Below the pieces are notes generated by a model that made no database searches, had not been told where the DNA came from, and worked only from the letters and a program-made list of their open reading frames with translations. Below are positions 35,031 through 62,643 of a DNA stretch of 64,000 nt, piece by piece. A program made the position numbers and the translations under genes. The DNA comes from Planotetraspora mira (GTDB lineage Bacteria > Actinomycetota > Actinomycetes > Streptosporangiales > Streptosporangiaceae), in contig NZ_BOOO01000037.1 of the NCBI RefSeq assembly GCF_016863275.1, positions 62,001-126,000 on the forward strand, in the 5' to 3' direction. Within the stretch, counting starts at the first letter, position 1. Every line of letters starts with the position of its first letter.

Positions 35031-35039
35031 GAGCACAAC

Positions 35040-41237: not shown

Positions 41238-41238
41238 G

Positions 41239-42495: not shown

Positions 42496-42561
42496 GGATG
42501 ATCGTCTCCCCCGTTCCCGCGTGGTGTGCCGTACCGAGGTCGTGCGGACCGGAACCGATCC

Positions 42562-45627: not shown

Positions 45628-46320
45628 GTGGGCGTCATCGAAGCCACCATCGAGAAGATCAAGCAGATGCTGGTCGACGGCGAACTGCTCCCCGGGCAGA
45701 AGCTTCCGGTCGAGAAGGACCTGGCCGACCAGCTCGGTGTCTCCCGCAACACGCTGCGGGAGGCGGTCCGCGCGCTGACCACGATGCGCGTGCTCCAGAC
45801 CAGGCAGGGCGACGGCACCTACGTCACCAGCCTCTCCCCCGGCCTGCTGCTCGACGGCCTGAGTTTCGTCGCGGACCTGCATCTCGACGCGGAGGCCAGG
45901 CACTTCCTGCACGTCCGCAGGCTGCTGGAACCGGAGGCCACGGCGCTGGCGGCGACCCGGGTGTCGGAGCCGGACCTGGCGCGGCTTGACGATCTGCTCT
46001 CCCGGGCCGAGCACCTCGCCGACCGGAGCCCGGTCGACCACGACGGTCTCGTCGACATCGACCACGCCTTCCACTCCCTGATCACCTCGCTGTGCGGCAA
46101 CGCTGTTCTCGCCGCGGTCATCGAGAACATGTCCGGCAGGACGGTCCGCGCCAGGGTCTGGCGCGGCATGACCGACCCCGGCGCCGTGCAGCGCACGCTG
46201 CGCGAGCATCGGCTCATCTATCAGGCACTGCGCGCGGGAGACACCGAGCGCGCGCGGCTGCACTCCGCGGTGCACATCGTCGGCGTCGAGGACGCTCTCT
46301 TGGAGGCGACGCATGAGTGA
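45628..46320 (+). CDS. GntR/FadR-type (FCD) regulator of the fucose locus
   Basis: A 230-residue GntR regulator. The winged helix is GELLPGQKLPVEKDLADQLGVSRNTLREAVRALTTMRVLQTRQGDGTYV, and the C-terminal FCD domain shows its metal-binding acid and histidines in DIDHAFHSLI, REHRLIYQAL and HSAVHIVGVE. FCD regulators respond to small organic acids, so L-fuconate or a keto-deoxy acid is a likely ligand. The GTG start follows the dehydratase stop directly, and the end overlaps larE by 8 bp. It probably controls both divergent operons. Confidence 0.9.
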   Translation: MGVIEATIEKIKQMLVDGELLPGQKLPVEKDLADQLGVSRNTLREAVRALTTMRVLQTRQGDGTYVTSLSPGLLLDGLSFVADLHLDAEARHFLHVRRLLEPEATALAATRVSEPDLARLDDLLSRAEHLADRSPVDHDGLVDIDHAFHSLITSLCGNAVLAAVIENMSGRTVRARVWRGMTDPGAVQRTLREHRLIYQALRAGDTERARLHSAVHIVGVEDALLEATHE

Positions 46321-47119
46321 GGGCATGGACCGGCTGACCGAGCGCCTGAGCCGCGAACACGCGGTCGTGGTCGCGTACTCCGGCGGCGTGGACTCGGCGC
46401 TGCTGGCCGTGGTGGCCGCCAACGTGCTGGGAGCCCGGGCGGTGGCCGCGACAGCGGTCTCCCCCAGCCTCGCCGCCGCCGAAAAGGCGGCGGCGAAGGC
46501 GTTCGCCCGCGAGCACGACCTGGCGCACATCGAGGTCTGCACCGACGAGGGCGACCGGCCCGAGTACACGGCCAACGGCCGGGACCGCTGCTACCACTGC
46601 AAGTCGGCGCTGTTCGACGCGCTCACCCCGCTGGCCCGTGCTATGGGCGCCCGGATCGCCCTGGGCACCAACCTCGACGACCTCGGTGACCACCGCCCCG
46701 GCCGGCGCGCGGCGGATGAGCGTGGTGCGATCGCCCCTCTGGTCGACGCGGGGCTCTCCAAGGCCGGAGTCCGCGCGCTCAGCCGGGAGCTCGGCCTGGT
46801 CACCGCGGACAAGCCCGCCGCGCCGTGCCTCGCCTCCCGGGTGAGCTACGGCGATCCGGTCACGCCGGAGGTCCTCCGCCGGATCGAGGTCGCCGAGGCG
46901 GCACTGCGCGGCCTGGGCTTCCCGGTCTGCCGTGTCCGCGCCCATTCGGGCGGCACCCTTGCCAGGGTGGAGGTCCCGTCCGCCGAGATCGCCCGCGCGA
47001 GCGAGTTGCGCGAGCGGATCGACACCGCGGTGCGCGGCGCGGGGTTCACCTTCTGCTCGCTGGACCTGTCGGGCTTCGCCTCGGGACGGCTCAACGCCCT
47101 GCTCCCCCTGCTCGTCTGA
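46313..47119 (+). CDS. larE: LarE, sulfur transferase of nickel-pincer cofactor synthesis
   Basis: A 268-residue PP-loop protein. The ATP site is SGGVDS (23-28), followed by the conserved RCYHCKSALFD (92-102) and GTNLDDLGDHRPGRRAA. Cys172 in KPAAPCLASR aligns, with an offset of 4, with the sacrificial Cys176 of L. plantarum LarE. It adenylates the LarB product and installs the sulfur atoms. Only one cysteine is seen at that site, so the sacrificial mechanism is more likely than the iron-sulfur version. The ATG overlaps the GntR stop. With larB and larC on the divergent arm this completes the pathway. Confidence 0.94.
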   Translation: MSEGMDRLTERLSREHAVVVAYSGGVDSALLAVVAANVLGARAVAATAVSPSLAAAEKAAAKAFAREHDLAHIEVCTDEGDRPEYTANGRDRCYHCKSALFDALTPLARAMGARIALGTNLDDLGDHRPGRRAADERGAIAPLVDAGLSKAGVRALSRELGLVTADKPAAPCLASRVSYGDPVTPEVLRRIEVAEAALRGLGFPVCRVRAHSGGTLARVEVPSAEIARASELRERIDTAVRGAGFTFCSLDLSGFASGRLNALLPLLV

Positions 47120-47188: not shown

Positions 47189-50100
47189 TCACCCCGCGTA
47201 GGCCTCGAAGTCGAACACCGCCGCGCCGTACCGGTGCGCGGTGAGCGGCTCGTTGGAGAACACCCGGATATACCGGGCGGTGACCGGCTGGCCGAGTTGG
47301 TATGTCTCGGACGTCGCCGTTCCGACGCCCGACGAGACGGTCGTCCAGATGTCCTTGTCGGCGGAGACGGTCGGGTAGCCGTTGCCGCCGCTCAACCGTG
47401 TGCACGTGCTGGAGTTCCGCTCAGCGGCCGTGTGGGCGTCCGCCTGTGCCTGGGAGAGCACCTGGATCTGGAACGGGGAGTTGTACATCGCCCCGTAGGT
47501 GGCGAGATTCTCTCCGAACTGGATCGAGTAGGACCCGATCGTTTTGTCGGAACCCAGATCGACATACGCCCACGTGCACAGCGACCCTTGAGTGGAGCCG
47601 GAGTTGCCGTCGGAGAACGCTCCGTCGGTCGCCCCGCCGGAGTACCAGCCGCTCGTCGCGTCGTCGTCGACCATCTTGGCCGGCGTCCGGTTCGCGTTCG
47701 TGGTCTGGCCGTAGGCGGTCACCGGCTTGTTCAGCGCCAGGTTCGGCGGCTTGATGTTGACCTTGACCGTCGCGGTCGCCTTCTCCCAGGGATGATCGGC
47801 GATCGTGCCCGTCAGGGTCTGGTCCTTGTCACCGGTGATCGCCTGGTCCCAGCGCACGTACACGAACCGGGTGAACGTCACGCCGCCGCCCGCGTCGAAG
47901 CGCGCGTTGGGGAACGTCTGCGCCGGAAGCGCCGGGGTGCCCGGGTTGTAGACCAGGCTTGTGGTGAGTGGCTGAGCCAGCTTGGGCATGACCGTCACCA
48001 GGACGGGGACCTTGAGGTCGGTGCCTTGGACTGTGCCCTCGACGGTGAACTTGCCGCGCGTCTGGCCGTCCACGTACGGGGTGGTGGCGATCGCGAGCTG
48101 ATCGGCCCCGATCGCGGGCCACGTCACGCCGACCTTGTCCCGCGTTCCGTCGGAGAAGATCGCGGTGACCTGCTCCGGCAACTTCGGCTGGCTGTCCTTG
48201 ACGGTCTTGACCCCGGCCACGTCGTAGCCGACGATGTGCCGTCCGGCGGTGCCGTCCTCCGGAACGACCGTCAGTTCGACCGGTCCGGTCGCGGGCGCGA
48301 CCGGCAGTGCGGCGACGCGGGCGTCGTCGAAGCTGCCCGTGCTCTTCTTGTCCAGGTAGTAGCCGACGCCACCGCCGGTGAAGGTGTCGTCCTGAAGGGA
48401 CAGGGCGTTCTTGCCGTTGACGGTGACGGTGAACAGGTCGCCGCGTGCGCTGACCCTCATCGCGTACCACTTGCCGGCCACGAGTTCGACGGGGGATGCC
48501 GCCTTGGCGATCTTCTTCCACTTGCCGCGGACCCGCTTGTCGAACGTGATCGTCTGCTTGTCGAGGTTCAGGGCCGCCCGGTAGAGGTTGTCGGGGTCTT
48601 GGACCCGGAGGAGCAACCCCGCGCTCTTGCCGCTGTCGACGCGCAACTGGGAGGAGTACAGGTACCCGGACCCGCTCCAGGGCGCCTCGCGTCCCGCGGT
48701 GACCACGCCCTCGTCCTTGCCGGTCTCGCCGGTGTAGTAGCCGGTCTCACCACTGGTGAAGACATCGGTGTTGACGACCTTCCAGGTTCCCGAGGCCGTC
48801 TGCCACTGCCACGGGAACTCGAAGCTCGTCCGGGTGTCCTTGGCGCCGAACACCAGGGCGCCCTCGGTGATCCAGCCCTTGGCCGCGTCCCAGTCGGCGA
48901 AGTCGCTGCGGTACAGCTCCTTGCCGTCGGGGTCGCTGAGCCGTACGTCGTCGAGCAAGACGAAGTCACCGAGCCCGCCGCCGTTGCGCTGGGCGATCCG
49001 GATGCCGCTGTATCCGGCGGTACGGCGCTGGGCTGCGGTGACCGTGTAGTCGATGACGAGCTGGCCGTCGATCCAGGCCTTGATCTGGTCGCCGATCGCC
49101 TGGAACCGCACGGCGTACTGGCGATCCGTGACCAGGTCGATGTTGGTGTTGACGGCCAGCGTCGTGGCGTGGTCGAGGATGAGCTGGACGTCCCCGGTGG
49201 TCGCCGTGGCGCGCTCGCCCTCGCCGACGCGGTTGGGGTCGAGCCGCAGCATGTAGCTGGTCTTGTTCTTCTCGTCGGCCCGCAGCATGAGCTGTCCGGT
49301 CGTGCCCTTGAGGAGCGTCATCTTCGCGTCGTAGACGACGTCGGCCGCCTTGACGTTCGTGTTGTAGACCGAGACGTCGCCGAAGAAGGGGAAGACGTAC
49401 GGCAGGAGCTTGAGCTGGCCGTCGGCGACGCGCCACTTGTCGGAGCCGAAGACCGTGTTCTGGTCCTCGGCCGCGGTCGCGTAGGTGAAGTCGTCGTCGT
49501 GGACGTCGCTGAGCATGTGCTCGACCGATGGCACGTACGACAGGTGGTCGATCTCCGGCTTCCCGCCCTTGATCTTTTCGATCCGCAGTGTGTGCGGGCC
49601 GTTCGGCAGGCCGGTCGCGCGGAAGGGGACGCCGGAAGCCTCGTCGTAGGAATCGGCGTAGACGACGCCGTCGACCAGGACGCGGGCGGTGCCTTTCGCC
49701 TTGGCCGGGGTGGTCCACTGAATGGATGTGCCGTCGAAGGTGAAGACCTGGTCGCCCTTGTCGGTGAGGATGCGCTTGTCCTTGCCGCCGACCTGGGTCC
49801 AGCCGGTGTCGTCCGAGGTGGTGGTGAGGTCGAACTGGACGACGCCGTTGTGGTTGAGCGTGAGCGTGTACACGCCGGTGCCGGGGTTCCACTGCTGGGC
49901 GTAGGTGTACTGCCCGTCGTAGCCGGAGATCGTGAGGACCGGCCGCGTGGTGGTGTGGACGCGGATCGTCGTCGTCCTGAGCTGGTCGTCGGCGGCGTGC
50001 GGCACGTAGGCGTACTTGGGGTAGTCCCTGATGAACTCCATGTCCCGCCGGCCGTCGTCGCGCAGCAGGTCCTGGCTGCGGTCGGACCGGTAGTTGTCGA

Positions 50101-51652
50101 CCAGCACGGACAACTTGTGGTCGCTCTCGTCGAGCGTCGCGAACGTGTGCGGTGTCATCTCCGGAATGTCCACCTGGGTGAACGTCGTGCCGTTCAGGTG
50201 GAGGGACGCGTCCTGGTTGACGTTGTCCCAGTAACGCGAGTTGTAGACCAGCCAGTGGCCGTTCCATTGCTGGGCGAACGCGTCGCCGGTGGAGATCTGC
50301 GGGTAGCGCTCGTCGAAGAAGGCCTTCTTCGCGTCACCGGCGATCAGCTGCGCGTTGTAGGTCGACTTGGTCAGCACGGTGCCGATCTTGTCGACGACGT
50401 CCTGGCCGGTCAGCTTGGGCAGCCGGGGGATGATGCCGTACCGGCCGGAGGAACGCAGGTAGTACCAGAGCTGCTGGCCGCCCAGGGCGTCCGGCACCTT
50501 CTCGTACAGGTCGAAGAAGGTGGTGCGGGCGTTGCGGGCGGACACGGTGTCCGACAGCGAGCTGATCGTGCCCTCGCGTTCGGAGAACGCCACCTTGGTC
50601 TTGGCGATGACCTCGTCCCTGGTGGGCCCGGCGTGCGTCAGCATGTACCGCATCGCGGGAAGCACGGACTGGTAGAACGTCGGCGTGTAGAGGTTGTTCG
50701 GCGCCGGGACGTCGATCTGGTTCTCCAGGTGGAAGACGGTCGCCCCGTTCTGCCACTGGTCCAGCATCGCCATCGCGTAGACCGTCTCCGGCTGTGACCG
50801 CGAGCACCGGTCGCCGCGGCTCAGCGAACCGCTGCTGCCCTGCCCGAACACGTTGCACCCGTAGTAGGCGTAGCCGTCGAAGTACGGCCCCCAGTTGCCC
50901 ACCGCACCGGCCATCCAAGCGCCCAGCGCCTGCGCGTTGGCGGTGTCGAAGTTCTCGTGCATGTCCTTCGGGTCGAGGATGAAGTTCTTGGAGTAGCGGG
51001 TGATGCTGCTCCAGAACGCCGGGTCCTCCATCTTGGCGCCGAGGAGGTTCGCCTCTTCCATCGAACCGAGAACGTGGAACCCGCCATACCGGTTGGCCAG
51101 TTCGAGGATCTTCGGCAGGTCGTTCAGGGTGTTCGTCAGCTCCGACACGACCGTGCCGACGAAGTTCGGATACGTCTGGTAGAGCTTCTCGATCCACTCG
51201 TACTTGTCGGCGGGAGCGGTCGGGGACTCACCCCACAGGACGAGCATCGGGATGCCGAGGTCCCGGCCTTCGGCGAGGTTGTCCTCCACCCACCGGCGGG
51301 TGACGGACGGGTTCGCGTCGGCCCACTGGTTGTGTCCCGGGTGCAGCACGAACGCCGTGTGCCCCTTGAGCTCATCGGGCAGAGCGGCCCACGCCTGCTT
51401 GATGTTCCAGCCCTCGTTGAGGTCGCGGCGGAAACCGGGATCCTGGCCGAAGTTGTAGCCGATCAGGAGTTGGGTAATGAGCAGCGGATTCTTGTTGTCG
51501 ATGGTCAGCCGGAGAGGTGCGTCGACGACGCCGCCGGCGGCCGACGCCGACGGGGCGAAGGCGACAGGGGAAACGCCGATCAAGGCGACCAGTAACGCGA
51601 CGAGAAGCCCTCGAAGGTACTGGTGTGGCCGCCGTGAGGCAGATAGGGACAT
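47189..51652 (-). CDS. Secreted GH98 endo-beta-galactosidase (blood-group-glycan type) with CBM
   Basis: A 1487-residue secreted enzyme. Residues 1-39 form a signal peptide (RGLLVALLVALIGVSPVAFAPSASA). Residues about 45-560 match GH98: LLIGYNFGQDPGFRRDLNEGWN, FDGYAYYGCNVFGQ, the catalytic-domain end VFHLENQIDVPAPN and TRDEVIAKTKVAF, and the GH98 C-terminal part YGIIPRLPKL and ISTGDAFAQQWNGHWLVYNSRYWDN. A concanavalin-like region, a BIG_4-like segment and a C-terminal F5/8 discoidin-type domain (NLALNKPVTAYGQT...WAYVDLGS) follow. Known GH98 enzymes cut the Gal-beta-1,4-GlcNAc bond of A/B/H antigens, releasing fucosylated oligosaccharides. GGAGGAAGA precedes the ATG. Confidence 0.85.
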   Translation of the reverse strand: MSLSASRRPHQYLRGLLVALLVALIGVSPVAFAPSASAAGGVVDAPLRLTIDNKNPLLITQLLIGYNFGQDPGFRRDLNEGWNIKQAWAALPDELKGHTAFVLHPGHNQWADANPSVTRRWVEDNLAEGRDLGIPMLVLWGESPTAPADKYEWIEKLYQTYPNFVGTVVSELTNTLNDLPKILELANRYGGFHVLGSMEEANLLGAKMEDPAFWSSITRYSKNFILDPKDMHENFDTANAQALGAWMAGAVGNWGPYFDGYAYYGCNVFGQGSSGSLSRGDRCSRSQPETVYAMAMLDQWQNGATVFHLENQIDVPAPNNLYTPTFYQSVLPAMRYMLTHAGPTRDEVIAKTKVAFSEREGTISSLSDTVSARNARTTFFDLYEKVPDALGGQQLWYYLRSSGRYGIIPRLPKLTGQDVVDKIGTVLTKSTYNAQLIAGDAKKAFFDERYPQISTGDAFAQQWNGHWLVYNSRYWDNVNQDASLHLNGTTFTQVDIPEMTPHTFATLDESDHKLSVLVDNYRSDRSQDLLRDDGRRDMEFIRDYPKYAYVPHAADDQLRTTTIRVHTTTRPVLTISGYDGQYTYAQQWNPGTGVYTLTLNHNGVVQFDLTTTSDDTGWTQVGGKDKRILTDKGDQVFTFDGTSIQWTTPAKAKGTARVLVDGVVYADSYDEASGVPFRATGLPNGPHTLRIEKIKGGKPEIDHLSYVPSVEHMLSDVHDDDFTYATAAEDQNTVFGSDKWRVADGQLKLLPYVFPFFGDVSVYNTNVKAADVVYDAKMTLLKGTTGQLMLRADEKNKTSYMLRLDPNRVGEGERATATTGDVQLILDHATTLAVNTNIDLVTDRQYAVRFQAIGDQIKAWIDGQLVIDYTVTAAQRRTAGYSGIRIAQRNGGGLGDFVLLDDVRLSDPDGKELYRSDFADWDAAKGWITEGALVFGAKDTRTSFEFPWQWQTASGTWKVVNTDVFTSGETGYYTGETGKDEGVVTAGREAPWSGSGYLYSSQLRVDSGKSAGLLLRVQDPDNLYRAALNLDKQTITFDKRVRGKWKKIAKAASPVELVAGKWYAMRVSARGDLFTVTVNGKNALSLQDDTFTGGGVGYYLDKKSTGSFDDARVAALPVAPATGPVELTVVPEDGTAGRHIVGYDVAGVKTVKDSQPKLPEQVTAIFSDGTRDKVGVTWPAIGADQLAIATTPYVDGQTRGKFTVEGTVQGTDLKVPVLVTVMPKLAQPLTTSLVYNPGTPALPAQTFPNARFDAGGGVTFTRFVYVRWDQAITGDKDQTLTGTIADHPWEKATATVKVNIKPPNLALNKPVTAYGQTTNANRTPAKMVDDDATSGWYSGGATDGAFSDGNSGSTQGSLCTWAYVDLGSDKTIGSYSIQFGENLATYGAMYNSPFQIQVLSQAQADAHTAAERNSSTCTRLSGGNGYPTVSADKDIWTTVSSGVGTATSETYQLGQPVTARYIRVFSNEPLTAHRYGAAVFDFEAYAG

Positions 51653-51696: not shown

Positions 51697-53667
51697 TCAG
51701 GCCTTGATCACGACCATGCCGTGGCCGTCCGGAACGTCGACCGTGGTGCGGACGTATCCGTTCTCGTAGGTGAAGGGCAGGTCGCGACCGTGCGGTTCGA
51801 GCCGGACGGCGCTGGGCGCGGTCTCAGATCTCACCGCGAGCTCCATGCCGACCAGCGGGAACGGGTCGCGCATGACGTCGATGCCCTCCACCTCGAAGGT
51901 GATCGGGCTGAGTCCCTCGGCCTGCCGGGACGCGAGGAAGCTGAGCAGGTGCACCACGCGGGCATCGGGAGTGTCGACGACCATGGCCTCCAGGTGGGAG
52001 GGTCCACCCGTCTGCAGGATCGGGTCCGGGAGGATCCGGTCGAAGATCTCCGCCAGCATCCGAAGGTAGGCGAGCGGAGCGTGTCTGCCGTACGCGGTGA
52101 AGATGGGCGCCGCGGTCACGGCCGTGCGCCCGCTGACGATCGCCGCCGCGTAACGCGGCTGCCCGGTTCCCGCAGGGGTGTAGTCGTGGCCGCTGAAGGC
52201 GTCCCACGCGCGGGTGAAGTACGGCTCGACCACGTCGTACAGCACGTCCGCGCCGTCGGCCGCGGTGAATCTGAGAGTCGGCTCATACATCGCATGAGGG
52301 AAGGCGTCCGTTTGCCCCGCGGGCCGCAGGAACGTTCCTTCCAGCGGCTCCCCCTCATGGATCTCGACGCCCTCGATTCCGATGGCCGCGGCGGCGGCCC
52401 CGCTCACCAATAACGCCCCGCCCGCCTCCATGAAGTGCCGGAGCCGGGCGGCGAACTCGGGCGAGACGGGTGTCGTCTCGGGAACCACCACGGCCCGGTA
52501 ATCGATGACGGGCGCGTCCGGGGGAATCACGTCGAACTGGAGCCGGAGTTGCTGCAGCGCCTTGACCACGCCGACCCCGACCGAGCCCGGGTCGTCGCCG
52601 AGCCGGGGGTCCATGACCACGGCGACTTCCTTGACGTGCGCACCGCCCTCGACGTGCGGCTCGCACAACGTGAGGTAGGCGTATGCCTCACCGACCAGGT
52701 CGTATGTCTCAGGGGCGAGTCGTCCGCTCGGGTGCAGCAGGTCGCCGACCCCGGCGGTCAAACCGTAGGCCAGCATCTGCGCGCACTCGAACTTCAGGGC
52801 CGCGGGCGTCTTGAGGCCGCCGTTGTCTCCCCAGCTCTTGTGGAAGCGGCCGGTGTGCGCCAGCGCGGGCAACCCCAGGGGCCGGACGAACCTGGCCACG
52901 TACGGCAGATAGCCATATCCCCAGCCGCCTGTGGGAAGCGCCTCGATCTCCACATGGGAGATGAAGCCGATCTCCTCCGCCAGCGCGGTCTTGGGCCGGC
53001 TGTTGAACCAGATGCTCATCGGCGCGTCGTCGGCGAGATGCGGCAGGACCATGTCGCGGAAGCGGCCCATGTACTCATGGGCGACCTTCCGCGCGAACCG
53101 GTCCCGGTCGGCCGCGTCGGCGGGGTCCAACCCCGCGCGGCGCATCCCGTCCACCGCCCACTTGGACGAGCTGGGTTGGTCCCAGCACATGTCGAGGAAT
53201 ATCCCGTCCACGGTGCCGAAGCGGGTCAGCACCTCCGCCAGCTGGTCGGTGAAGTAGTCCTGGTACGGGCTGGACATGTCGAGGACGTACCAACCGGGAT
53301 CGAACCGCCCATGGGAGCGCCTCACCTGCCGGCCGTCGGGCTCCAGGGCGATCCACTCGGGAGCGAGCTCGGCGGCGTACTCGTCAACCGCCATGCTCAG
53401 GTAGATCGGGGCCTTGAGCCCTTCACGGTGCAGCGCCTCGACCTGCTCCTCAAGCAGGTGCAGCTCCTTGGCCAGGCCGGGATGCCGCTCCGGCCGGTCG
53501 GTGTCGTAGTAGAGGTGCCCGTGATGGCACTTGGCGAACAGGGTGACACTCTCGACGTGTGCCTCGACGAAGGTGCGGGCGAACGTGCCGGCGTCGAAGG
53601 CGGCGCCGACGGCGGGAACCTTCGGGCCGGTGTGGAAGTCCAGGTGAACGGTGCGCCTGGGCAGCAT
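51697..53667 (-). CDS. GH151-like alpha-L-fucosidase (GHL6 + GH42-type trimerisation domain)
   Basis: A 656-residue cytoplasmic protein without signal peptide. It begins RRTVHLDFHTGPKVPAVGAAFD and continues SVTLFAKCHHGHLYYDTDR, APIYLSMAVDEYAAELAPEW and DGIFLDMCWDQPSSS, a GHL6-type barrel. The middle (EVAVVMDPR, VVVPETTPVSPEFAARLRHFMEAGGALLVSG) is a beta-galactosidase trimerisation-like domain. This architecture is that of GH151 alpha-L-fucosidases. The fucose context supports it, but catalytic residues were not assigned, and other GHL6 activities are possible. It lies between the importer permease and the GH98 gene in one operon. The ribosome site is weak. Confidence 0.65.
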   Translation of the reverse strand: MLPRRTVHLDFHTGPKVPAVGAAFDAGTFARTFVEAHVESVTLFAKCHHGHLYYDTDRPERHPGLAKELHLLEEQVEALHREGLKAPIYLSMAVDEYAAELAPEWIALEPDGRQVRRSHGRFDPGWYVLDMSSPYQDYFTDQLAEVLTRFGTVDGIFLDMCWDQPSSSKWAVDGMRRAGLDPADAADRDRFARKVAHEYMGRFRDMVLPHLADDAPMSIWFNSRPKTALAEEIGFISHVEIEALPTGGWGYGYLPYVARFVRPLGLPALAHTGRFHKSWGDNGGLKTPAALKFECAQMLAYGLTAGVGDLLHPSGRLAPETYDLVGEAYAYLTLCEPHVEGGAHVKEVAVVMDPRLGDDPGSVGVGVVKALQQLRLQFDVIPPDAPVIDYRAVVVPETTPVSPEFAARLRHFMEAGGALLVSGAAAAAIGIEGVEIHEGEPLEGTFLRPAGQTDAFPHAMYEPTLRFTAADGADVLYDVVEPYFTRAWDAFSGHDYTPAGTGQPRYAAAIVSGRTAVTAAPIFTAYGRHAPLAYLRMLAEIFDRILPDPILQTGGPSHLEAMVVDTPDARVVHLLSFLASRQAEGLSPITFEVEGIDVMRDPFPLVGMELAVRSETAPSAVRLEPHGRDLPFTYENGYVRTTVDVPDGHGMVVIKA

Positions 53668-53692: not shown

Positions 53693-54538
53693 TCAGTCCT
53701 TGAGCGCGCCGCTGGTCAGCCCGCTGGTGATGAAGCGAAGGCCGAACACGACGAGAAGGACCGCGGGAAGGGCGAGGAGAACGAGACTCGCGCTGTAGCG
53801 AGCGGCGTCGACGGGCGAGGCGGACAGCGCGTTGTGGAAGGTGGACACCGCCTGCGCGGCCGTCGTCATCTCCGGCCGCGTGTTGAAGATGGCCGGCCAC
53901 AGGAAGTCCTGCAGCGACCACATGAAGCACAGGACGGTCAGGTTGACGATGGCCGGGCGGGCCATGGGAACGAAGACGTACCGGAAGATCTGCGGATGAC
54001 CGGCCCGGTCCACGATCGCCGCCTCCAGCAGCTGGTCGGGCACGTTGTCGGCGTAGTTGCGCATCAGCAGCACGCCGAACGGCACGGTCAGCGCGGCCTC
54101 GGGCAGGCCGACGCCGAGGTAGGTGTTGAACAGGCCCAACTCGTGCGTGACGTGATACAGCGGCACGAGGATCGCGGTGCCGGGGATGGCCAGGAACAGC
54201 AGCGTGCCGTAGTAGAGCAGTTCACGGCCGGGGAACTGCAACTTCCCGAAGGCGTAGCCGGCAGGCAGCGACACAACGAGGACCACTGCGGTGTGGACGA
54301 CACCGTTGGCCAGGGAGTTCAGGTACGTCCGCCAGATCGGCACGCCCCCAAGGGGGTCGGTGAACAGCGACACGAACGTGGAAGGGCCGCCGAGCCTGAA
54401 CGCCTCGCTCAGCGCCGACCACACCGGGAACAGCCAGACCACCGCCGTCACTCCGAGGAACAGCTGCATGATCATGCGATCTCGACGGCGGCGGCCCAGG
54501 AGGCCGAAACCGCCGGCGTGTGACGTGCTGACACTCAT
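53693..54538 (-). CDS. Sugar ABC transporter permease, MalG type
   Basis: A 281-residue CUT1-type permease with six predicted membrane segments (MIMQLFLGVTAVVWLFPVW first). The EAA loop that contacts the ATPase reads EAAIVDRAGHPQIFRYVFVPMARPAI. Its ATG overlaps the stop of the upstream permease (ATGA). Together with that permease and the binding protein it should import an oligosaccharide, probably fucosylated, given the flanking GH98 and GH151 genes. Confidence 0.92.
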   Translation of the reverse strand: MSVSTSHAGGFGLLGRRRRDRMIMQLFLGVTAVVWLFPVWSALSEAFRLGGPSTFVSLFTDPLGGVPIWRTYLNSLANGVVHTAVVLVVSLPAGYAFGKLQFPGRELLYYGTLLFLAIPGTAILVPLYHVTHELGLFNTYLGVGLPEAALTVPFGVLLMRNYADNVPDQLLEAAIVDRAGHPQIFRYVFVPMARPAIVNLTVLCFMWSLQDFLWPAIFNTRPEMTTAAQAVSTFHNALSASPVDAARYSASLVLLALPAVLLVVFGLRFITSGLTSGALKD

Positions 54539-55539
54539 CGCGAGGTCCTTTCCGCGTCCGGCTTCTCGGCGGCCTGGCCGGAGGGCGACGCCGGTGCCCC
54601 GGCACCCCTGCTGCTCATGCCGCCATCCTTCGTGCGGCGACTGCTCCGCCGCTCCTGAGGAGCACGGCGAGGCCGGGCGATCAGGGCCTGCGTCGCTGAC
54701 ACGAGTAGCGCGACGATCAGCACCAGGACCGACGCGGCCGAGGCGTAACCGATCGTGGAGCCGGCCGAGGTCACGAACCGGTAGGTGTAGGTTCCGACGA
54801 TCTCGGTCGTGTCGTCAGGACCACCGCCCGTGGACAGCAGCACGACCTCGAAGGCCCGGAAGGAGCCGAGGAGCAGGGCGAGGATCACTGTGATGTGAGT
54901 GCTGCGCATCATCGGATGGATGATCGTCCGCATGATGTGCAGCGGGCCCGCACCCTCCAGGACCGCGGCCTCCAGCACATCGGTGCGCAACGTGGACAGG
55001 TCAGCGGTGTAGTACATGATGGGCAAGCCGATGAGGTAGGCGAACAGGCCGACCACAGCGGCGAACGCCCAGCCGGGCTCGGTGAGCCAGTGTGCGGCCA
55101 GCCCGTCCAGGCCCACCGCCCGGAACGCCTGATTCAGTGCGCCGTCCTGATACTGGAGCATCCGCCCGAAGACCGTGGCGACCAGTGCGATCGGGGTGAG
55201 CGCGGGAACCAGGAAGATCGCGTAATAGAGCTTGCGCCCGCCGACGCCCGAGGCCAGGAGCACCGCGATCACGAACCCGAGGGTCAGCGCGAAGGCGATG
55301 CTCGCCGCGGCGAACAGCAGGTTGTTGCGGATCGCGTGGATGAACGTCTCGTCCTCCAGCAGGAGGCGGTAGTTCTTCCAGCCCACGTCGACCGCGTTGG
55401 CGAAGCTGATCGACACCTTGGTGAAGCTGGTGCGGATCAAGAACCAGAAGCTGTACCCGAAATAGATCGCGTACATGACGAACAGCGGGATCAGGAACAG
55501 GAACGCGATCCGTCCCTCGCCCTTCAGCGTGCGCCGCAT
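54535..55539 (-). CDS. Sugar ABC transporter permease, MalF type
   Basis: A 334-residue CUT1-type permease. The first membrane segment is IAFLFLIPLFVMYAIYFGYSFW and the EAA loop is EAAVLEGAGPLHIMRTIIHPMMRS. A hydrophilic C-terminal tail of about 50 residues (rich in Arg, Ser, Ala) is longer than usual. I chose MRRTLKG behind AAAGG rather than the ATG 11 codons earlier. No ATPase gene is in the cluster; actinomycete sugar importers of this class commonly share one MsiK-type ATPase. Confidence 0.92.
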   Translation of the reverse strand: MRRTLKGEGRIAFLFLIPLFVMYAIYFGYSFWFLIRTSFTKVSISFANAVDVGWKNYRLLLEDETFIHAIRNNLLFAAASIAFALTLGFVIAVLLASGVGGRKLYYAIFLVPALTPIALVATVFGRMLQYQDGALNQAFRAVGLDGLAAHWLTEPGWAFAAVVGLFAYLIGLPIMYYTADLSTLRTDVLEAAVLEGAGPLHIMRTIIHPMMRSTHITVILALLLGSFRAFEVVLLSTGGGPDDTTEIVGTYTYRFVTSAGSTIGYASAASVLVLIVALLVSATQALIARPRRAPQERRSSRRTKDGGMSSRGAGAPASPSGQAAEKPDAERTSR

Positions 55540-55602
55540 GGATAACCTTTCTGGCACCCGGCCGGGGCGCAATTGCGCTGCGCCCCGGCCGGAGGGGACC
55601 CG

Positions 55603-56940
55603 TCAGCTGAACTTGCCGCTGTCGAGGTCGTCCTGCATCTTCTGGGCCGCCTCCGTGGGGTTACCACCGCCGATGACCTTCAGTACGCCCTTGCCGACCT
55701 CGGCGGAGAAGGCGCTCAGGTTGTTGCGATCGCCGTGCGGGCTGGCGATCAGGTCCTGGATCGTCTTCAGTCCGGTCTTCTCAGCGTCGCTGGTCAACGT
55801 GCCCTCGGGCGGGTTCCATCCCTGGACGGCCGGAATGAGCCCGAGGTCCTTGGCCCACGCGTCGACGCCCGCGCCCGTGGTGATGTACGCGATGAAGTCG
55901 GCGGCCTCCTTGGGATACTTGGCCGTCTTCGGGACACCCATGGTCACGTCGAGGAACGACCGCAGCGACCGCGTGGCCGGATCACCCACCGCCGGGACCG
56001 GCAGCGCGCCGACATCGGTCAGCGCGATCTTGTTCGCCTCACGGTAGGCAGGTGAGAGCAGCACCGAGTCCCAGGTGCCGTTGAAGATCATCGCTGCCTT
56101 ACCGGTGGCGAAGGTCTCCTCGGCCTTGGCGTAATCGACGTCGATCAGGTTCTTGTCGAGCCCGCCGTCGTTGTAGATCTTCTGCAGCGCCGTCAGCCCC
56201 TGGACGTACGACGGGGTGTTCCAGGGCCCGTTGTTGTAGCGCACGTTGTTGAAGAAGTCCTTGTCCTGCTGACCGACCAACGTGAGCGCGAACTCGTCCT
56301 GGAACCAGGAGTCGGCGCCGGACGGCATGACCGCCACCGCGACACCCGGCTTCTTCTCCTTCAGGACAGTGGCCAGGTTCGCCATGTCGGCGAAGGTCTG
56401 GGGCGGCTCCACCCCGACCTCCTTCAGCAGGGCCGCATTGTAGAAACCGACCGCCGAGCCGCTCAGACCGAACGGGACCGAGTAGAGCTGGCCATCGCTG
56501 TAGAGCTTCTTGTTCTGCTCCAGCGACAGTGGCTGGAACTTGGCCATCGTCCCCGCCGGCAGGTCCTTCTCCCACGCGGAGACCGGCAGCAACTGATCCT
56601 TGATCTGGTCGGCGAACAGGTTCGGCTGCACGGCCAGGACGTCGATCTGCTCGCCGGCGTTCAGCGCGAGCGGGACCTTGGCCTTGAAATCGAGCTGCGC
56701 GATCTCGGTGTTCTTGATCGTGACGTTCGGGTGGTCCTTGGTGTAGGCGTCGATGGCGCGTTGCATGGCCGCGCCACCCGGCGCCCCCGTCCAGGTCCAC
56801 AGGTTGAGGGTGACCGGACCGGTGGCGGCCTCGGTGGCCGAGCCACTCGCGGCAGGGTCGGATGTGCCGCCGCACGCGGTCGCCAGCGCCAGCGCGCCTC
56901 CGGCCGCCAGGAGGGCGAAAGCCCGCCGATTGATGTTCAT
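55603..56940 (-). CDS. Sugar ABC transporter substrate-binding lipoprotein
   Basis: A 445-residue extracellular solute-binding protein (family 1). The N-terminus MNINRRAFALLAAGGALALATAC has an RRAF twin-arginine-like motif and a lipidation cysteine at position 23; Ala at -3 of the lipobox is atypical. The mature part shows LNLWTWTGAPGGAAMQRAIDAY, YSVPFGLSGSAVGFYNAALLKEVG, FATGKAAMIFNGTWD and MGVPKTAKYPKEAADFIAYI. It is the first gene of the SBP-MalF-MalG-GH151-GH98 operon. The ligand is probably the fucosylated oligosaccharide released by GH98. Confidence 0.93.
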   Translation of the reverse strand: MNINRRAFALLAAGGALALATACGGTSDPAASGSATEAATGPVTLNLWTWTGAPGGAAMQRAIDAYTKDHPNVTIKNTEIAQLDFKAKVPLALNAGEQIDVLAVQPNLFADQIKDQLLPVSAWEKDLPAGTMAKFQPLSLEQNKKLYSDGQLYSVPFGLSGSAVGFYNAALLKEVGVEPPQTFADMANLATVLKEKKPGVAVAVMPSGADSWFQDEFALTLVGQQDKDFFNNVRYNNGPWNTPSYVQGLTALQKIYNDGGLDKNLIDVDYAKAEETFATGKAAMIFNGTWDSVLLSPAYREANKIALTDVGALPVPAVGDPATRSLRSFLDVTMGVPKTAKYPKEAADFIAYITTGAGVDAWAKDLGLIPAVQGWNPPEGTLTSDAEKTGLKTIQDLIASPHGDRNNLSAFSAEVGKGVLKVIGGGNPTEAAQKMQDDLDSGKFS

Positions 56941-56990: not shown

Positions 56991-57145
56991 AATTGTCCCG
57001 ATGACTTGTGAGCGCAGGAGAGTTCTACTCCCGGATGAAGCCCATGTAAAGGGGTTGTTACGCGAAATTGACCCAATGACTCACGCAGCGGCGGCTCAGG
57101 TTGGCCCGAAGAGTGGATGATCTGGCGTCAATTGGTCCGATGACT
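56991..57145. promoter_or_regulatory. Three direct repeats AATTGNYCCRATGACT in the divergent promoter
   Basis: Copies: AATTGTCCCGATGACT at 56991-57006, AATTGACCCAATGACT at 57066-57081 and AATTGGTCCGATGACT at 57130-57145, all in the same orientation, start-to-start distances 75 and 64 bp. They fill the region between the binding-protein gene and the GntR-GH29 fusion gene and are the best candidate operators for the fused GntR domain. Confidence 0.7.
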
Positions 57146-57182
57146 TAGAGTCTCCTTGTCCTGATGTTTACCTGGAGGTTCG

Positions 57183-59252
57183 ATGACAGCCGGCGACCAG
57201 CGCCCGGGGGCCAGCCGCCCCGCCGTGTCGTGGGCTCTACGCCAGGTCCTCGATCGCATCGCGAACGGCGCTTTCGCGCCCGGGCAGCAACTCCCCGTCG
57301 AACGGGACCTCGCCTTGCAGCTCGGTGTGTCGCGCGGGTCCATCCGTGAGGCCATGAGCGCGCTGGTCGCGCTCGGACTGGTCGATCCTCGTCAGGGAGC
57401 CGGGGTGTTCGTCACAGCGCTCGACCCTGAGCAGTTGCTGTCCGGACTTCGCCTGGTGCTGCCGATCGCGGACGAGACCCGGCGGGATGAGTTGCTCGAG
57501 GTGCAGGCCGTGCTGGAAGGAGCGGCGGCCGGATTGGCGGCGGTCCGCACCGGCCCAGAAGGGGCGCCCATCCTGACCAAGCTCGCAGCGGAGGTCGCAG
57601 GGGCGGATACCCCGGCGGAAGCCGCCGATGCCGACCGAGAGTTCCATCTCGGGTTGTCGCAGATGAGCGGCAACGCCGTTCTCGCATCACTCGCCGACGC
57701 CCTGTTCAGCCGTGCCACGCGCCTTTCTGTCTGGCAGACGATGTGGGACCAAGGACGCGAGCACTTGCTGCTGGACCACGACATGGTGATCGCGGCGTTG
57801 GAGAACCGGGACGCCGAAGGCGCACGCGCCTGGGCGCTCACCCACGCGTCCAGGACCGCCGCCGCCCGCCGGAGCCCGGAACCGAAGCCTCAGGTGAGGA
57901 AGCGGCGAAAGCGGGCCAAGGCTGAGGAAGCCCCAGAGCGGGAGACACCCACCTGGTTCCGCGACGCGAAACTCGGTGTGCTCATTCACTGGGGCCTGTA
58001 TTCGGTGCCCGGCTGGGCACCGCTCGACGAGTCGCTGGTGGAGCTGCTCACCGACGAAGAGACCCGGCCGCATGAAAACGATGAGCCCGACCCTCTCGTC
58101 GCCCATCCCTTCTCCGAGTGGTACCAGAACAGTCTCGCCATCGAAGGCAGCCCCACCTGGAACTACCACCGCGCCACCTACGGAAATATGCCCTACCGGC
58201 AGTTCAGGGCATCCTTCGCCACCGCGTTGACCGAGTGGGATCCCACCGAGTGGGCGAACCTGTTCACCTCCGCCGGAATCAGGTACGCCGTGCCCGTGGC
58301 GAAGCACCACGACGGCTTCCGCATGTGGCCCTCCGCCGTACCGCACCGCGACGATTGGACCGCCCCACGCGACGTCGTCGGCGAGGTGGCTGCGGCTGTA
58401 CGGGAAAAGGGACTGAGGCTGGGCGTCTACTACTCATCCGGCCTGGACTGGTCCTTCGCCAACCTGCCGGTCCGGCGCATGGTCGACGTCCGGGACAGTT
58501 GCCCTCCCGGCACGCAATACGCCGCCTATGTGGACGCGCACTGGCGCGAGCTCATCGACCGGTACCGCCCGGACATCCTCTGGAACGACATGGGTTACCC
58601 CGGCGATCCGGCGGTCATGTTCCGCGACTACTACGCCCAGGTTCCAGACGGTGTGGTGACCGATCGATTCTGGAGCGGCAGCTACGACGTCTCCACCCCC
58701 AACTTCGCCCGCCGGCACGTGATCGACACCCGCCCGTGGGAGGTCGCCCGTCCGATCGGCGTCTCCTTCGGCTGGAACCGCCAGGAGGGCCCCGAGCACA
58801 CTCTCTCCGGCACCCAACTCGTCCACCTCCTGCTGGACGTGGTCAGCAAGAACGGCAACCTCCTGCTCGGCGTCTCCCCCGACGATCGCGGCCGGATCCC
58901 GCAGATCCAGCAACGCTCGCTCATGGAACTCGGCTCCTGGCTCGCCGTTCACGGGGAGGCCGTGTACGGAACCCGTCCGTGGACCACCCCCGAGTCCACC
59001 ACCCAGGACGGCCTCCCGGTCCGCTTCACCGTGAAGGCCCACACCCTGTACGTCCACCTACTCGGGCCGGTAGCCGGGGAAACCGTCGTCACCGGACTCC
59101 ATCTCCCGCAGGGAACGGAAGTCCTCGACCTCGCCACCGGCACTCCAATAGCGACCAGTAACGGGAGGAAGGGCACCGTCCTCAATCTTCCGGGTGCTGC
59201 GGCGGCCCCCGCACGGGTCCTGCGCGTAAATCCCGTTCCCGAAGCCGGGTGA
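57183..59252 (+). CDS. GntR/FCD transcription factor fused to GH29 alpha-L-fucosidase
   Basis: One uninterrupted 689-residue frame behind GGAGG. Residues about 15-80: GntR winged helix (GAFAPGQQLPVERDLALQLGVSRGSIREAMSALVALGLVD, QGAGVFV). Residues about 100-225: FCD ligand domain with the metal set Asp151, His155, His199 and His221 intact. Residues 225-255: a basic linker (KPQVRKRRKRAKAEEAPE). Residues 256-685: GH29 fucosidase with WFRDAKLGVLIHWGLYSVPGW, VAKHHDGFRMW and the nucleophile Asp469 in DILWNDMGYP, plus the C-terminal beta domain. There is no signal peptide, so it is cytoplasmic. It probably regulates the divergent importer/GH98 operon and also removes fucose from imported glycans. 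Confidence 0.9.
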   Translation: MTAGDQRPGASRPAVSWALRQVLDRIANGAFAPGQQLPVERDLALQLGVSRGSIREAMSALVALGLVDPRQGAGVFVTALDPEQLLSGLRLVLPIADETRRDELLEVQAVLEGAAAGLAAVRTGPEGAPILTKLAAEVAGADTPAEAADADREFHLGLSQMSGNAVLASLADALFSRATRLSVWQTMWDQGREHLLLDHDMVIAALENRDAEGARAWALTHASRTAAARRSPEPKPQVRKRRKRAKAEEAPERETPTWFRDAKLGVLIHWGLYSVPGWAPLDESLVELLTDEETRPHENDEPDPLVAHPFSEWYQNSLAIEGSPTWNYHRATYGNMPYRQFRASFATALTEWDPTEWANLFTSAGIRYAVPVAKHHDGFRMWPSAVPHRDDWTAPRDVVGEVAAAVREKGLRLGVYYSSGLDWSFANLPVRRMVDVRDSCPPGTQYAAYVDAHWRELIDRYRPDILWNDMGYPGDPAVMFRDYYAQVPDGVVTDRFWSGSYDVSTPNFARRHVIDTRPWEVARPIGVSFGWNRQEGPEHTLSGTQLVHLLLDVVSKNGNLLLGVSPDDRGRIPQIQQRSLMELGSWLAVHGEAVYGTRPWTTPESTTQDGLPVRFTVKAHTLYVHLLGPVAGETVVTGLHLPQGTEVLDLATGTPIATSNGRKGTVLNLPGAAAAPARVLRVNPVPEAG

Positions 59253-59365: not shown

Positions 59366-61759
59366 TCAGCGGCGTTCATTGACGCAGCGCATAACCGGAA
59401 AGCGGGTCAGCGCCTCGGGGTCGGGAGCGCCTCCCTCGATATGGAAGACGGCCGTCTCACCGGGGAGGAGGCTGAGGAGTTGATCGTCCACCCTCGAGAG
59501 CGGGTCGAGCCGATCGGGAAAGAACGCTAGGTCTCGTACCACCGTCCGGGCGGTGACGCTCACTCTCAGGCCACTGCCGACCGCCTCGACCGACGTATCC
59601 AGATCGGCGGGGGGGTAGTCCAGCGCCGGATCCTCGGCGAAGAAGCGCAGCGCGCGCACTCCGTCAAGGGTCGCCGAAAGGACCTGCTGCCCTGGGCGCT
59701 CGGCCTTGGCGACGGCGTCAGGCAGGTGCACCCAGGCCGTTCCCCTGGGCGGCGCCGCGACGGCGACGCGCTCCTTGGCCAAGGGTTCTCCCTCGAGGGT
59801 CAGGCGAACCAGCTCAAGCTCCCCTTGCCACGTTTCGTCTGTGTCGTTGACCATTGCCACGCGCCGGCTTTGAAAGGTCACCAGCCGGTCCGCGAAGGCG
59901 CGCCGCAGTGCGTACCACAAGGGTTTGCGCCGTCCGCCGCCATCGACGGCAGACCAGGACGTGACCGGCCAGCAGTCGTTGAGTTGCCACACGAGCGTGC
60001 CCATGCAGTACGGCGCGAGCGCCCGGAACCTCTCGACGCCGAAGGCCACCGCCCTCGCCTGGTTGACCTGGGTGAAGTAGTGCCAGTCGTCGAAGCCCGA
60101 CGGCGCGGGCAGATGATCGCCAAGGCCGCGTAGCAACTTGGCGCCTCCGTCGACGGCCTTCTGGTGGTGCCTGACCCCCGGCGAGTCCGGGGTCAGCGGG
60201 TCGTCACTGACGGCGGCACGCAGGGTCGCATAGGTCGGGGGGCCCTGGAAGCCGAACTCGGCCACGAACCGCGGCGTGTAGTCCGCATAGTGCGTGTAGT
60301 CGTGGGTGTTCCACACCGTCCAGATGTGCATCGTGCCCTTGGCAGGATCGTTCGGCGACAGGTCGGGAGCGCCGGAATAGGGACTGCCCGGCCAGTAGGG
60401 CCGGGTCGGGTCCAACTCCGCGATTACGCGCGGCAACAGGTCGTAGTAGAAGCCGCCACCCCAGGTCCGCCCGGCGAGGCCGTCCTGCCAGTCCCAGTCG
60501 GTGTGGCCCTCGATGTTCTCGTTGTTTCCGCACCAGATCGCGAGGCTGGGGTGTCGCGCCAGGCGGGACACGTGTTCTCGGGCCTCGGCTTCGACCTCCC
60601 GGCCGAATGGTCCCTCCTCGGGGTAGGCGGCGCAGGCGAAAGGAAAGTCCTGCCAGATGAGGAGTCCCATCTCGTCGGCCAGGTCGTAGAAGTCGTCACT
60701 TTCGTATCGGCCGCCGCCCCACACCCGCAGGGCGTTCGCTCCCGCGCCGGCGGCCTGGGAGAACCGCTCGGCAACGCGTTCCCTGGTCAGGCGGGAGGGG
60801 AAGCAGTCGTCGGGTATCCAGTTGAAGCCCTTCACGAACACCGGTTTCCCATTGACGACCAGGGTGAAGGCATCATCGGAACGGTCGAGGCGGACGGAGC
60901 GGAAGCCGATCCTTCGCGTCCAGATTTCCTCGCCTAGGCGCACAGTCAGGTCGTAGAGCGGCTGGGCGCCATGGCCACGAGGCCACCACTTCTCCGGATC
61001 CGGCACCGTCAGCCGCACGACCGCCTGCCGCTCGCCGGCGGCCAGCAGCAACTCCTCGGTGATCTCGTCCACGGAGACGGTCAGCGTGAGTGGCTCCTCG
61101 ACGGCGCGGTCCACCGTGATGTGTACCTCCACCACGCCGTCCGCTCCGTCGAGCGTGACGAGCGGACGCACCTCGGCCAGCCGGGCAGCACTCCAGGCGT
61201 GGAGGCCGATGGGTGCCCAAATTCCGGAGGTGACCACCGTCGGGCCCCAATCCCAGCCGAAGTTGCATGCCATCTTCCGGATGAACTGATACGGCTCGGT
61301 GTAGGCGCCTGGCCGGTCACCGAGGGCCGCCTGCCACTTCTCGGCGTATTCATACGGAGGGTCGAACAGCACCTTCAGCGTGTTCCGGCCCTCGCGGAGC
61401 AAGTGGCGTGCCGGGAAGCGATACGACCGGTGCATATTGGCGGTCGCCCCCAGTTCGACCCCGTTGAGCACGACGGTCGCCACCGTGTCGAGCCCTTCGC
61501 AGACCAGATCGGCGCGGTCGTCGCCGGTGTCCGACCAAGTGAACGTCGTCTCGTAGGCCCAGGCGGTGTGCCCTATCCAGTTCAGCCGCGTCTCGTTGTC
61601 GTCAAGATAGGGATCGTCGATGATCCCGGCGTGGAGGAGGTCGGTGTGGACGCAGCCGGGAACAATCGCGGGCACTCCGGCGATCACCGGCCCGAGCCGC
61701 CCGGTCGACGACACGGCGGTGACGGTCCATCCGTCGTGCAGGGGACGGTGCAAGCTCAC
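59366..61759 (-). CDS. GH2 beta-mannosidase-like glycoside hydrolase
   Basis: A 797-residue GH2 enzyme of the beta-mannosidase type, without signal peptide. The N-terminal sugar-binding domain has GVPAIVPGCVHTDLLHAGIIDDPYLDDNE and WIGHTAWAYETTF; then MACNFGWDWGPTVVTSGIW. The catalytic barrel holds ALRVWGGGRYESDDFYDLADEMGLLIWQDFPFACA, the acid/base Glu414 in IWCGNNEN and the nucleophile Glu501 in FVAEFGFQG. The GTG start overlaps the stop of the ABC ATPase gene (GTGA) behind GAGGAGAAAG, so imported manno-oligosaccharides or N-glycan cores are the likely substrates. Confidence 0.9.
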   Translation of the reverse strand: MSLHRPLHDGWTVTAVSSTGRLGPVIAGVPAIVPGCVHTDLLHAGIIDDPYLDDNETRLNWIGHTAWAYETTFTWSDTGDDRADLVCEGLDTVATVVLNGVELGATANMHRSYRFPARHLLREGRNTLKVLFDPPYEYAEKWQAALGDRPGAYTEPYQFIRKMACNFGWDWGPTVVTSGIWAPIGLHAWSAARLAEVRPLVTLDGADGVVEVHITVDRAVEEPLTLTVSVDEITEELLLAAGERQAVVRLTVPDPEKWWPRGHGAQPLYDLTVRLGEEIWTRRIGFRSVRLDRSDDAFTLVVNGKPVFVKGFNWIPDDCFPSRLTRERVAERFSQAAGAGANALRVWGGGRYESDDFYDLADEMGLLIWQDFPFACAAYPEEGPFGREVEAEAREHVSRLARHPSLAIWCGNNENIEGHTDWDWQDGLAGRTWGGGFYYDLLPRVIAELDPTRPYWPGSPYSGAPDLSPNDPAKGTMHIWTVWNTHDYTHYADYTPRFVAEFGFQGPPTYATLRAAVSDDPLTPDSPGVRHHQKAVDGGAKLLRGLGDHLPAPSGFDDWHYFTQVNQARAVAFGVERFRALAPYCMGTLVWQLNDCWPVTSWSAVDGGGRRKPLWYALRRAFADRLVTFQSRRVAMVNDTDETWQGELELVRLTLEGEPLAKERVAVAAPPRGTAWVHLPDAVAKAERPGQQVLSATLDGVRALRFFAEDPALDYPPADLDTSVEAVGSGLRVSVTARTVVRDLAFFPDRLDPLSRVDDQLLSLLPGETAVFHIEGGAPDPEALTRFPVMRCVNERR

Positions 61760-62643
61760 GCTTTCTCCTCTGTGACGTGCGTCGCGACGTTTCCTGTGGC
61801 ATTCCCCGTGCCATCCGCCGTGACGACCGGTGTGCCGTCCGGCAAACCGGTCGGCGCGGCCTCGTCGGCCCACTTGGCGCCCAATCGGGGAACCGACGCG
61901 AGCAGGTTACGGGTGTACGGATGCTCAGGGCGCTCGAAGATCTGGGTGGTGGGGCCCGACTCCACGACCCTCCCCTGCCGGAGCACCACGGTCCGGTCGC
62001 TGACGTAGGTGCCGAGTGACAGATCGTGGGTGACGAACAGGACGCCCAGCCCGCGCGCCTTCAGGTCGGCGAGCAGGTTGAGCACGTCGATGCGGGTCGA
62101 GGCGTCGAGCATGCTGGTGATCTCGTCGGCGACCAGCAGCCTGATGTCTAGCAGCAGCGCCCGCGCGATCAGCAGCCGCTGGAGCTGGCCGCCACTGAGC
62201 TGGTGGGGATACTTGCCCAGCACCTGGCCGGGGTCGAGCCGCACGTCCTCGAGCGCGGCCGCGACCCGCTCGGACCAGCCCGCGGCCCTGGGGAAGAACT
62301 GGTCCCTGATCATCGTCAGGACGCGGTCTGCCGGAAAGATCGGGTTGAACGAGCTGAACGGATCCTGGAAGACGCCCTGGACCTGGCGGTAGTACGACCT
62401 GCCCAGGGTGGAGACGTCCGTGCCGTCGAAGGTGATCGTGCCGCCGCTGACGGACGTCAACCGAAGGATCATCCGGGCGAGGGTGCTCTTCCCGCTCCCG
62501 CTCTCGCCGATGAGGGAGACGACCTCGCCCCGCCTCACCTCGAAACCGACGTCGGACACCGCGGCGAGCTCCCTGCCGCCGAACGCCCCGACCTTGTAGA
62601 CCTTGGAGACCCGGTCGAGCCTGAGCAGCACGTCTTCGGCCAT
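61756..62643 (-). CDS. Opp/Dpp-type ABC transporter ATPase (DppF/OppF-like)
   Basis: A 295-residue ATPase: Walker A GESGSGKST, Q-loop QGVFQDPFSSFNP, signature LSGGQLQRLLIARAL, Walker B LLVADEITSMLD and H-loop FVTHD. It ends without the cysteine-rich oligopeptide-ABC tail, but has HPYTRNLLASVPRLG. The start overlaps the stop of the partner ATPase (TGATG). Opp/Dpp-type systems import oligosaccharides as well as peptides in actinomycetes; coupling to a GH2 gene points to glycans here. Confidence 0.93.
   Translation of the reverse strand: MAEDVLLRLDRVSKVYKVGAFGGRELAAVSDVGFEVRRGEVVSLIGESGSGKSTLARMILRLTSVSGGTITFDGTDVSTLGRSYYRQVQGVFQDPFSSFNPIFPADRVLTMIRDQFFPRAAGWSERVAAALEDVRLDPGQVLGKYPHQLSGGQLQRLLIARALLLDIRLLVADEITSMLDASTRIDVLNLLADLKARGLGVLFVTHDLSLGTYVSDRTVVLRQGRVVESGPTTQIFERPEHPYTRNLLASVPRLGAKWADEAAPTGLPDGTPVVTADGTGNATGNVATHVTEEKA

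Follow-up and report, generated by a model that had tools for sequence, protein, structure and literature searches.

A GntR/FCD regulator fused to a GH29 domain that is probably disabled as a fucosidase, divergent from a sugar-importer operon in Planotetraspora mira

The window analyzed here is a stretch of 64,000 nucleotides from Planotetraspora mira (contig NZ_BOOO01000037.1, positions 62,001 to 126,000). It contains a gene in which a GntR DNA-binding domain, an FCD domain, and a GH29 domain are joined. Upstream of it, a motif near ATTGGTCCGATGACTTA occurs three times in direct orientation, and beyond these copies begins a divergent operon of five genes, all on the minus strand with gaps of at most 44 bp, encoding a sugar ABC importer, a probable second fucosidase, and a GH98 glycosidase (Table 1). 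The protein that we take for the fucosidase of the operon matches PDB 6tvk, named “Alpha-L-fucosidase,” at E 1.1e-78 over residues 5-655, nearly its whole length, and gave no NCBIfam match at E 0.001; 6tvk is presumably a GH151 enzyme, hence the label GH151-like. The GH98 protein matches PDB 2wmh (E 2.6e-58) and carries Big_4 and F5/8-type domains. Among solved structures, its closest relatives are a Ruminococcus gnavus endogalactosidase GH98 and entries under the name “fucolectin-related protein,” which we take to be pneumococcal. GH98 enzymes of that kind cut fucosylated blood-group glycans.

Table 1. Features of the fusion locus (positions in the window)
Feature	Coordinates	Strand	Details
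GH98 glycosidase	47189..51652	-	1487 aa; signal-peptide-like start, lectin-like domains; PF08306/PF08307
Probable cytoplasmic alpha-L-fucosidase	51697..53667	-	GHL6 and GH42M domains; GH151-like; PDB 6tvk
ABC permease 2	53693..54538	-	BPD_transp_1; 79-80% identical in L035 and L036
ABC permease 1	54535..55572	-	ORF; family assigned by eye; 81-82% identical in L035 and L036
Sugar ABC importer, solute-binding protein	55603..56940	-	SBP_bac_1; 77% identical in L035 and L036
Operator-like copy 1	56991..57008	+	AATTGTCCCGATGACTTG; just past the inferred importer-operon promoter
Inferred importer-operon promoter	57023..57050	-	TTTACA-N17-TAGAA; by eye; conserved in 3/3 loci
Operator-like copy 2	57066..57083	+	AATTGACCCAATGACTCA
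Inferred fusion promoter	57122..57151	+	CTGG(A/C)..-N18/19-TAnnnT; by eye; conserved in 3/3 loci
Operator-like copy 3	57130..57147	+	AATTGGTCCGATGACTTA; within the inferred fusion promoter
Fusion gene GntR-FCD-GH29	57183..59252	+	689 aa; full-length orthologues L035 and L036
GntR winged helix-turn-helix	57243..57413	+	residues 21-77; PF00392, 59.3 bits (curated cut-off 27)
FCD domain	57489..57848	+	residues 103-222; PF07729, 61.5 bits (curated cut-off 24.3)
Linker	57867..57935	+	residues 229-251; weakly conserved
GH29 domain and C-terminal part	57936..59249	+	residues 252-689
Codon AAC for N507	58701..58703	+	Glu in TmFuc and in 20/20 unfused rows

The genes at 38570-47119 match an L-fucono-lactonase, a diketo-deoxy-sugar-acid hydrolase (FAH-type), an enolase-superfamily dehydratase, an SDR dehydrogenase, the lactate racemase larA, and the maturation genes larC and larE, and they include a standalone GntR/FCD gene (45628-46320). 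The lar genes score above their NCBIfam cut-offs, and the lactonase, hydrolase, dehydratase, and SDR score below. This region is likely to encode non-phosphorylative L-fucose catabolism, with pyruvate and lactate as plausible end products. On the other side of the fusion, and convergent to it, lies a GH2 glycosidase (59366-61873, minus strand), with oligopeptide-type ABC ATPase genes upstream. Several transposase-like ORFs, recognized by eye and placed in families by our own assumption, occur at 28568-37048, which suggests a mobile region in the vicinity of the fucose locus.

The first-pass annotation had described the fusion as one open frame joining a GntR domain, an FCD domain with its metal residues, a basic linker, and a complete GH29 fucosidase with its nucleophile. 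Much of this description stands. The frame runs from the ATG at 57183, preceded 4 nt upstream by GGAGG, to the TGA at 59252, with zero internal stops, and all three Pfam matches exceed their cut-offs (Alpha_L_fucos over residues 239-592, 247.4 bits against 25.2). The FCD metal residues (D151, H155, H199, H221) and the GH29 nucleophile (D469) are present. The linker is basic in the window, with a weaker basic character in one orthologue (L036). It is the completeness of the fucosidase that is not supported, since the acid/base residue of the Thermotoga maritima type is missing (see below).

Homologous fusions in other genomes were looked for and found. Scanning named genome contigs with a pattern yielded four confirmed loci, two of them full length: L035, from Streptomyces sp. 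NRRL WC-3742 (Streptomycetaceae), and L036, from Solihabitans fulvus (Pseudonocardiaceae), with 72% and 71% identity, respectively, and no stops. Since the fusion is conserved over its full length in both, a chance joining of two genes or an assembly error is excluded. The same alternative of a sequencing error, raised by the first-pass annotation, is also excluded by the purifying selection on the domains (dN/dS among the fusions of about 0.07-0.13 for GntR, 0.27-0.35 for FCD, and 0.18-0.21 for GH29) together with the lack of a common start in the linker. The latter is 39-57% identical across the three fusions, and no start codon within it is common to all three. L035 and L036 alone have one in common, a GTG at alignment column 235, and the window carries a separate GTG (V238). 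One GTG common to all three sits within GH29 (column 268). An internal start releasing GH29 by itself thus seems unlikely. We consider the fusion confirmed as real.

The gene is rare in the samples searched, and the idea that it occurs widely was rejected. In whole-genome samples that overlap, the only full-length match listed was that of the window's own genome in 1 of 60 genomes sampled, in 1 of 394 from the class, in 1 of 341 from the family, and in 1 of 396 from the phylum. In another sample the only full-length match listed was that of a Streptomyces genome, G060 (1/394), found again in a sample revisiting some genomes (1/335). Apart from the sample of 60, these listings were of strong matches (E 1e-60 to 1e-115 or better). 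Among 72,556 plasmid records, 200 matched and none with a coverage of 80% or more; 38 stretches of viral contigs fitted a pattern, and none was confirmed. The divergent sugar importer adjoins the fusion in L035 and L036 too. The L036 operon instead encodes a GH95 and a protein whose match to GH101 is weak and below cut-off, and in L035 the protein past the permeases has 69% identity to this GH101-like protein over 708 residues. Hence, the importer and the regulator are constant and the enzymes vary. At E 1e-60 or better, the only one of 60 genomes to match the window's solute-binding protein was its own, and the cassette was therefore probably acquired.

How did the fusion arise? In a quick tree of 28 rows, the fused GH29 domains are monophyletic (100) and sister (98 SH-aLRT) to the unfused GH29 of two genomes, G446 and G464, whose loci (L119 and L120) hold the closest GH29 relatives found, at 48.6-50.5% identity. 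These GH29 genes adjoin a standalone GntR/FCD gene, so that GH29 and GntR/FCD are there two separate genes, in the opposite order (GH29 then GntR), and with Glu at the acid/base position. Furthermore, the GntR of L119 and L120 is not sister to the fused GntR (tree of 24 rows). Because of the opposite gene order and the non-sister GntR, the fusion is not a simple read-through of such a pair.

The nearest solved relative of the C-terminal part is the GH29-A fucosidase of T. maritima (TmFuc, PDB 1hl8; E 8e-103), a match at the level of the family, with which it has in common the nucleophile and eight further checked residues. The nucleophile D224 of TmFuc corresponds to D469, kept in the three fusions. 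The same applies to H34, E66, W67, H128, and H129 (H269, E312, W313, H375, and H376) and to Y171, W222, and R254 (Y416, W467, and R495), where we take R254 to be a functional residue of TmFuc. In that enzyme D224 is the nucleophile and E266 the acid/base (PMC7711723, PMC9548408), H34, E66, W67, H128, and H129 are first-shell residues, and Y171 and W222 are second-shell residues (PMC7711723). Apart from the DNA-binding regulator attached to it, the fused domain differs from TmFuc in having N507 for E266. This position is Asn in all three fusions and Glu in the 20 unfused rows of alignment A6, including the sister GH29s of L119 and L120, and its context aligns without gaps (STPNFARR in the fusion versus VTPEYATR in L119). 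The 3 fused and 20 unfused rows of A6, like those of alignment A5 used below, were selected from more loci by strong match and stop-free reading before counting, and not by the residues counted. A separate pattern tally over all loci gave Glu in 38 of 40 distinct matches, the remaining two being fusions, one of which the pattern read out of register, giving R where the residue is N (L036 was not caught by the pattern). Unfused GH29 has 94 conserved columns; all fusions keep 77 of them, and 10, including 507 and 508, differ in every fusion.

In human FucA1 the acid/base is D276, which by our reading of the alignment corresponds to F508. With N507 and F508 in all three fusions, there is no acid/base carboxylate at either the TmFuc E266 or the FucA1 D276 position, and therefore neither acid/base type is present. 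The reported kinetics of FucA1 D276N give an idea of the consequences: on Fuc-alpha1,2-Gal, a natural-type substrate in these assays, kcat/KM falls from 660 to <20 per s per M, and on the activated pNP-fucose from 24,000 to 600, with a lower KM that its authors ascribe to accumulation of the fucosyl-enzyme (PMC9548408). Hence, the change from Glu to Asn predicts poor turnover of natural substrates and not complete deadness. The fused GH29 is probably disabled as a normal fucosidase, and an Asn at the acid/base position fits a domain that would hold its ligand. This loss in all three fusions is the most interesting point of the analysis, and it goes beyond what the first-pass annotation had seen.

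The regulator half is of the FadR/FCD type: its GntR and FCD domains are above cut-off and it has the metal residues, with operator sites that are candidates. The latter residues are invariant in all 26 rows of alignment A5 (3 fused and 23 unfused GntR-FCD, selected from more loci), and their role in metal binding follows from work on DgoR and relatives (PMC7674646). The fusion has GntR and FCD domains and metal residues in common with DgoR, LldR, NanR, and PdhR, but differs from such regulators by a GH29 extension of about 440 residues and by the loss of the Arg equivalent to DgoR R102. At FCD position 108, which aligns with R102 (counted from a printed alignment), the three fusions have Gln, His, and His (Gln in the window), and the 23 unfused rows all have Arg; a pocket Arg of this kind is a feature of the FCDs compared, not of every FadR/FCD member. 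DgoR Arg102 is reported to be needed for binding of D-galactonate, none of which was bound by R102A in thermophoresis, and DNA binding by R102A was almost abolished and partly restored by D-galactonate (PMC7674646), so that the effect of the mutation is not simple. Among the rows used, the branch leading to the fused GntR-FCD is also very long (2.1 changes per column), and the fusions all differ at 15 of the 63 columns conserved in GntR-FCD. The suggestion of the first-pass annotation that fuconate might be sensed in the FCD pocket is weakened by these data, as the loss of the Arg would speak against this acid as ligand. A shift of sensing to the GH29 domain would be compatible with the FCD changes.

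The annotation had also pointed to operator-like repeats upstream of the gene, and the three copies listed in Table 1 are indeed found in L035 and L036 as well. Their spacings are 75/64, 74/75, and 74/74 bp in the three loci, close to whole helix turns. None of 2000 dinucleotide shuffles of each of the three regions was as good as the real one; the query was copy 3 of the window, so a self-match contributes to the value for the window, and the three regions have a common ancestry. In its own genome (9.03 Mb), the motif has seven matches with two mismatches or fewer. Two exact ones and one more are these copies, and exact matches occur only upstream of the fusion. The reversed motif gave two matches, and the other four are therefore near background. 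A repeat search saw phased copies in the window and L036, not in L035, and added a further 67% copy in the window at 57097-57114. The TGGTCCGATGA core fits 9 of 11 positions of the FadR-type TKGTMNKACMA, where the consensus string and the count are our own and the underlying boxes and their 3-nt spacing are those reported in PMC4494728. A strict sigma-70 promoter scan of the control region found none, and the promoters were assigned by eye. Copy 3 falls within the inferred fusion promoter, and copy 1 lies immediately beyond the inferred promoter of the importer operon, a placement that suggests repression. NanR, for comparison, has operator repeats that are adjacent (PMC8012715), and the candidate copies of the fusion are 64-75 bp apart.

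Enzymes or enzyme folds are known to serve regulation in other systems: ROK repressors and BlaR1/MecR1 have enzyme-derived sensors, and PutA and BirA are trigger enzymes. The fusion resembles them in this respect, although the label of trigger enzyme implies a catalysis that seems doubtful here. To our knowledge, no glycosidase barrel occurs in a GntR protein among enzyme-derived regulators. No description of a GntR-GH29 fusion or of a glycosidase-derived sensor of a transcription factor turned up among the papers listed from the open-access literature, and the main text of a survey of regulator companion domains has no word beginning with “glyco” (PMC5882156).

We lean, if only somewhat, toward a repressor that controls its own gene and detects imported fucosylated glycans through its disabled GH29 domain. 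A FadR/FCD-type GntR regulator would have gained a GH29 domain that is probably no longer a normal fucosidase. This domain, in which the checked residues of the fucose site and the nucleophile are retained, would bind fucosylated oligosaccharides brought in by the divergent importer, with poor turnover, and its ligand state would be passed on to the GntR-FCD dimer. The ligand-free protein would bind the three phased operators, repress its own promoter, and block the five-gene operon; the ligand-bound protein would release the DNA, and the actual defucosylation would be left to the fucosidase of the operon, whose presence as a separate enzyme counts for a sensory role of the fused GH29. The more specific proposal, that a pseudo-fucosidase has replaced the FCD pocket as the sensor of a GntR repressor controlling the uptake of glycans that its ancestor would have cut, has in our view an even chance of being right. 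In that case a long-lived fucosyl-enzyme, a covalent record of the bound sugar, could even act as the signal, given the retained nucleophile. The first-pass annotation had proposed that the fusion ties the sensing of fucosylated glycans to their hydrolysis: a link between the use of these glycans and gene control is likely, but hydrolysis by the fused GH29 is doubtful because of the Asn at the Glu266 position in the three fusions. If true, the repressor reading would illustrate the path of a catabolic enzyme to a sensor through fusion to a regulator, with one catalytic residue lost and the binding pocket retained. The sister GH29 genes, unfused and adjoining standalone GntR genes, offer a natural comparison, and the fusion may provide a fucoside-specific biosensor module.

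Could the fused domain still be an active fucosidase? The protein might be bifunctional, with GH29 hydrolyzing fucosides by means of a relocated acid/base residue and coupled to the regulator like a trigger enzyme. The nucleophile and the other checked residues are kept, and the acid/base position of GH29-A enzymes varies and is reported to align poorly by sequence (PMC10154630, PMC9548408), so that D515, an Asp in all three fusions, or E312, the equivalent of TmFuc E66, might act instead. An Asn need not mean no activity either, because FucA1 D276N still cuts pNP-fucose (PMC9548408). However, D515 is not a new gain, because TmFuc has that Asp alongside E266. The constant Glu of the unfused rows, sisters included, the Phe at the FucA1-type position, and the separate fucosidase in the operon also speak against an active domain, and we find such a protein rather doubtful. 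A passenger role for GH29 is less credible to us and is unlikely. The FCD alone would then sense, for example, fucose or an intermediate, and GH29 would be tethered but uncoupled, or serve as a dimer scaffold. The invariant metal residues of the FCD and the variable linker would agree with this. Yet, by dN/dS, GH29 is more strongly constrained than the FCD, and it is in the regulator half that the position of the pocket Arg and a good part of the conserved columns have changed in all fusions.

Finally, the regulator of the three operators might be, instead of the fusion, the standalone GntR/FCD encoded with the fuconate-type genes nearby (45628-46320). This regulator has the RQG wing in common with the fusion and, by eye, a similar recognition helix, and a site with the GGTCCGATGACTT core precedes the standalone GntR in L119 and L120. 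Nevertheless, the region before the fuconate-type genes (44163-44331) holds at best a weak relative of the motif, the exact sites in the genome lie only beside the fusion, and the copies accompany the fusion in all three loci, which makes this assignment very improbable. The repressor with a GH29 sensor remains our preferred reading.

Matches to the motif were also recorded elsewhere. In G060 the scan gave nine matches against one for the reversed control, some of them adjoining a beta-helix protein, a GH29 that carries F5/8 domains, and a second importer accompanied by another GH29. In Streptomyces sp. NRRL WC-3742, more arrays of the motif, spaced by 64-73 bp, lie beside other glycan genes (L056, 2221-2372; L055, 1888-1977).
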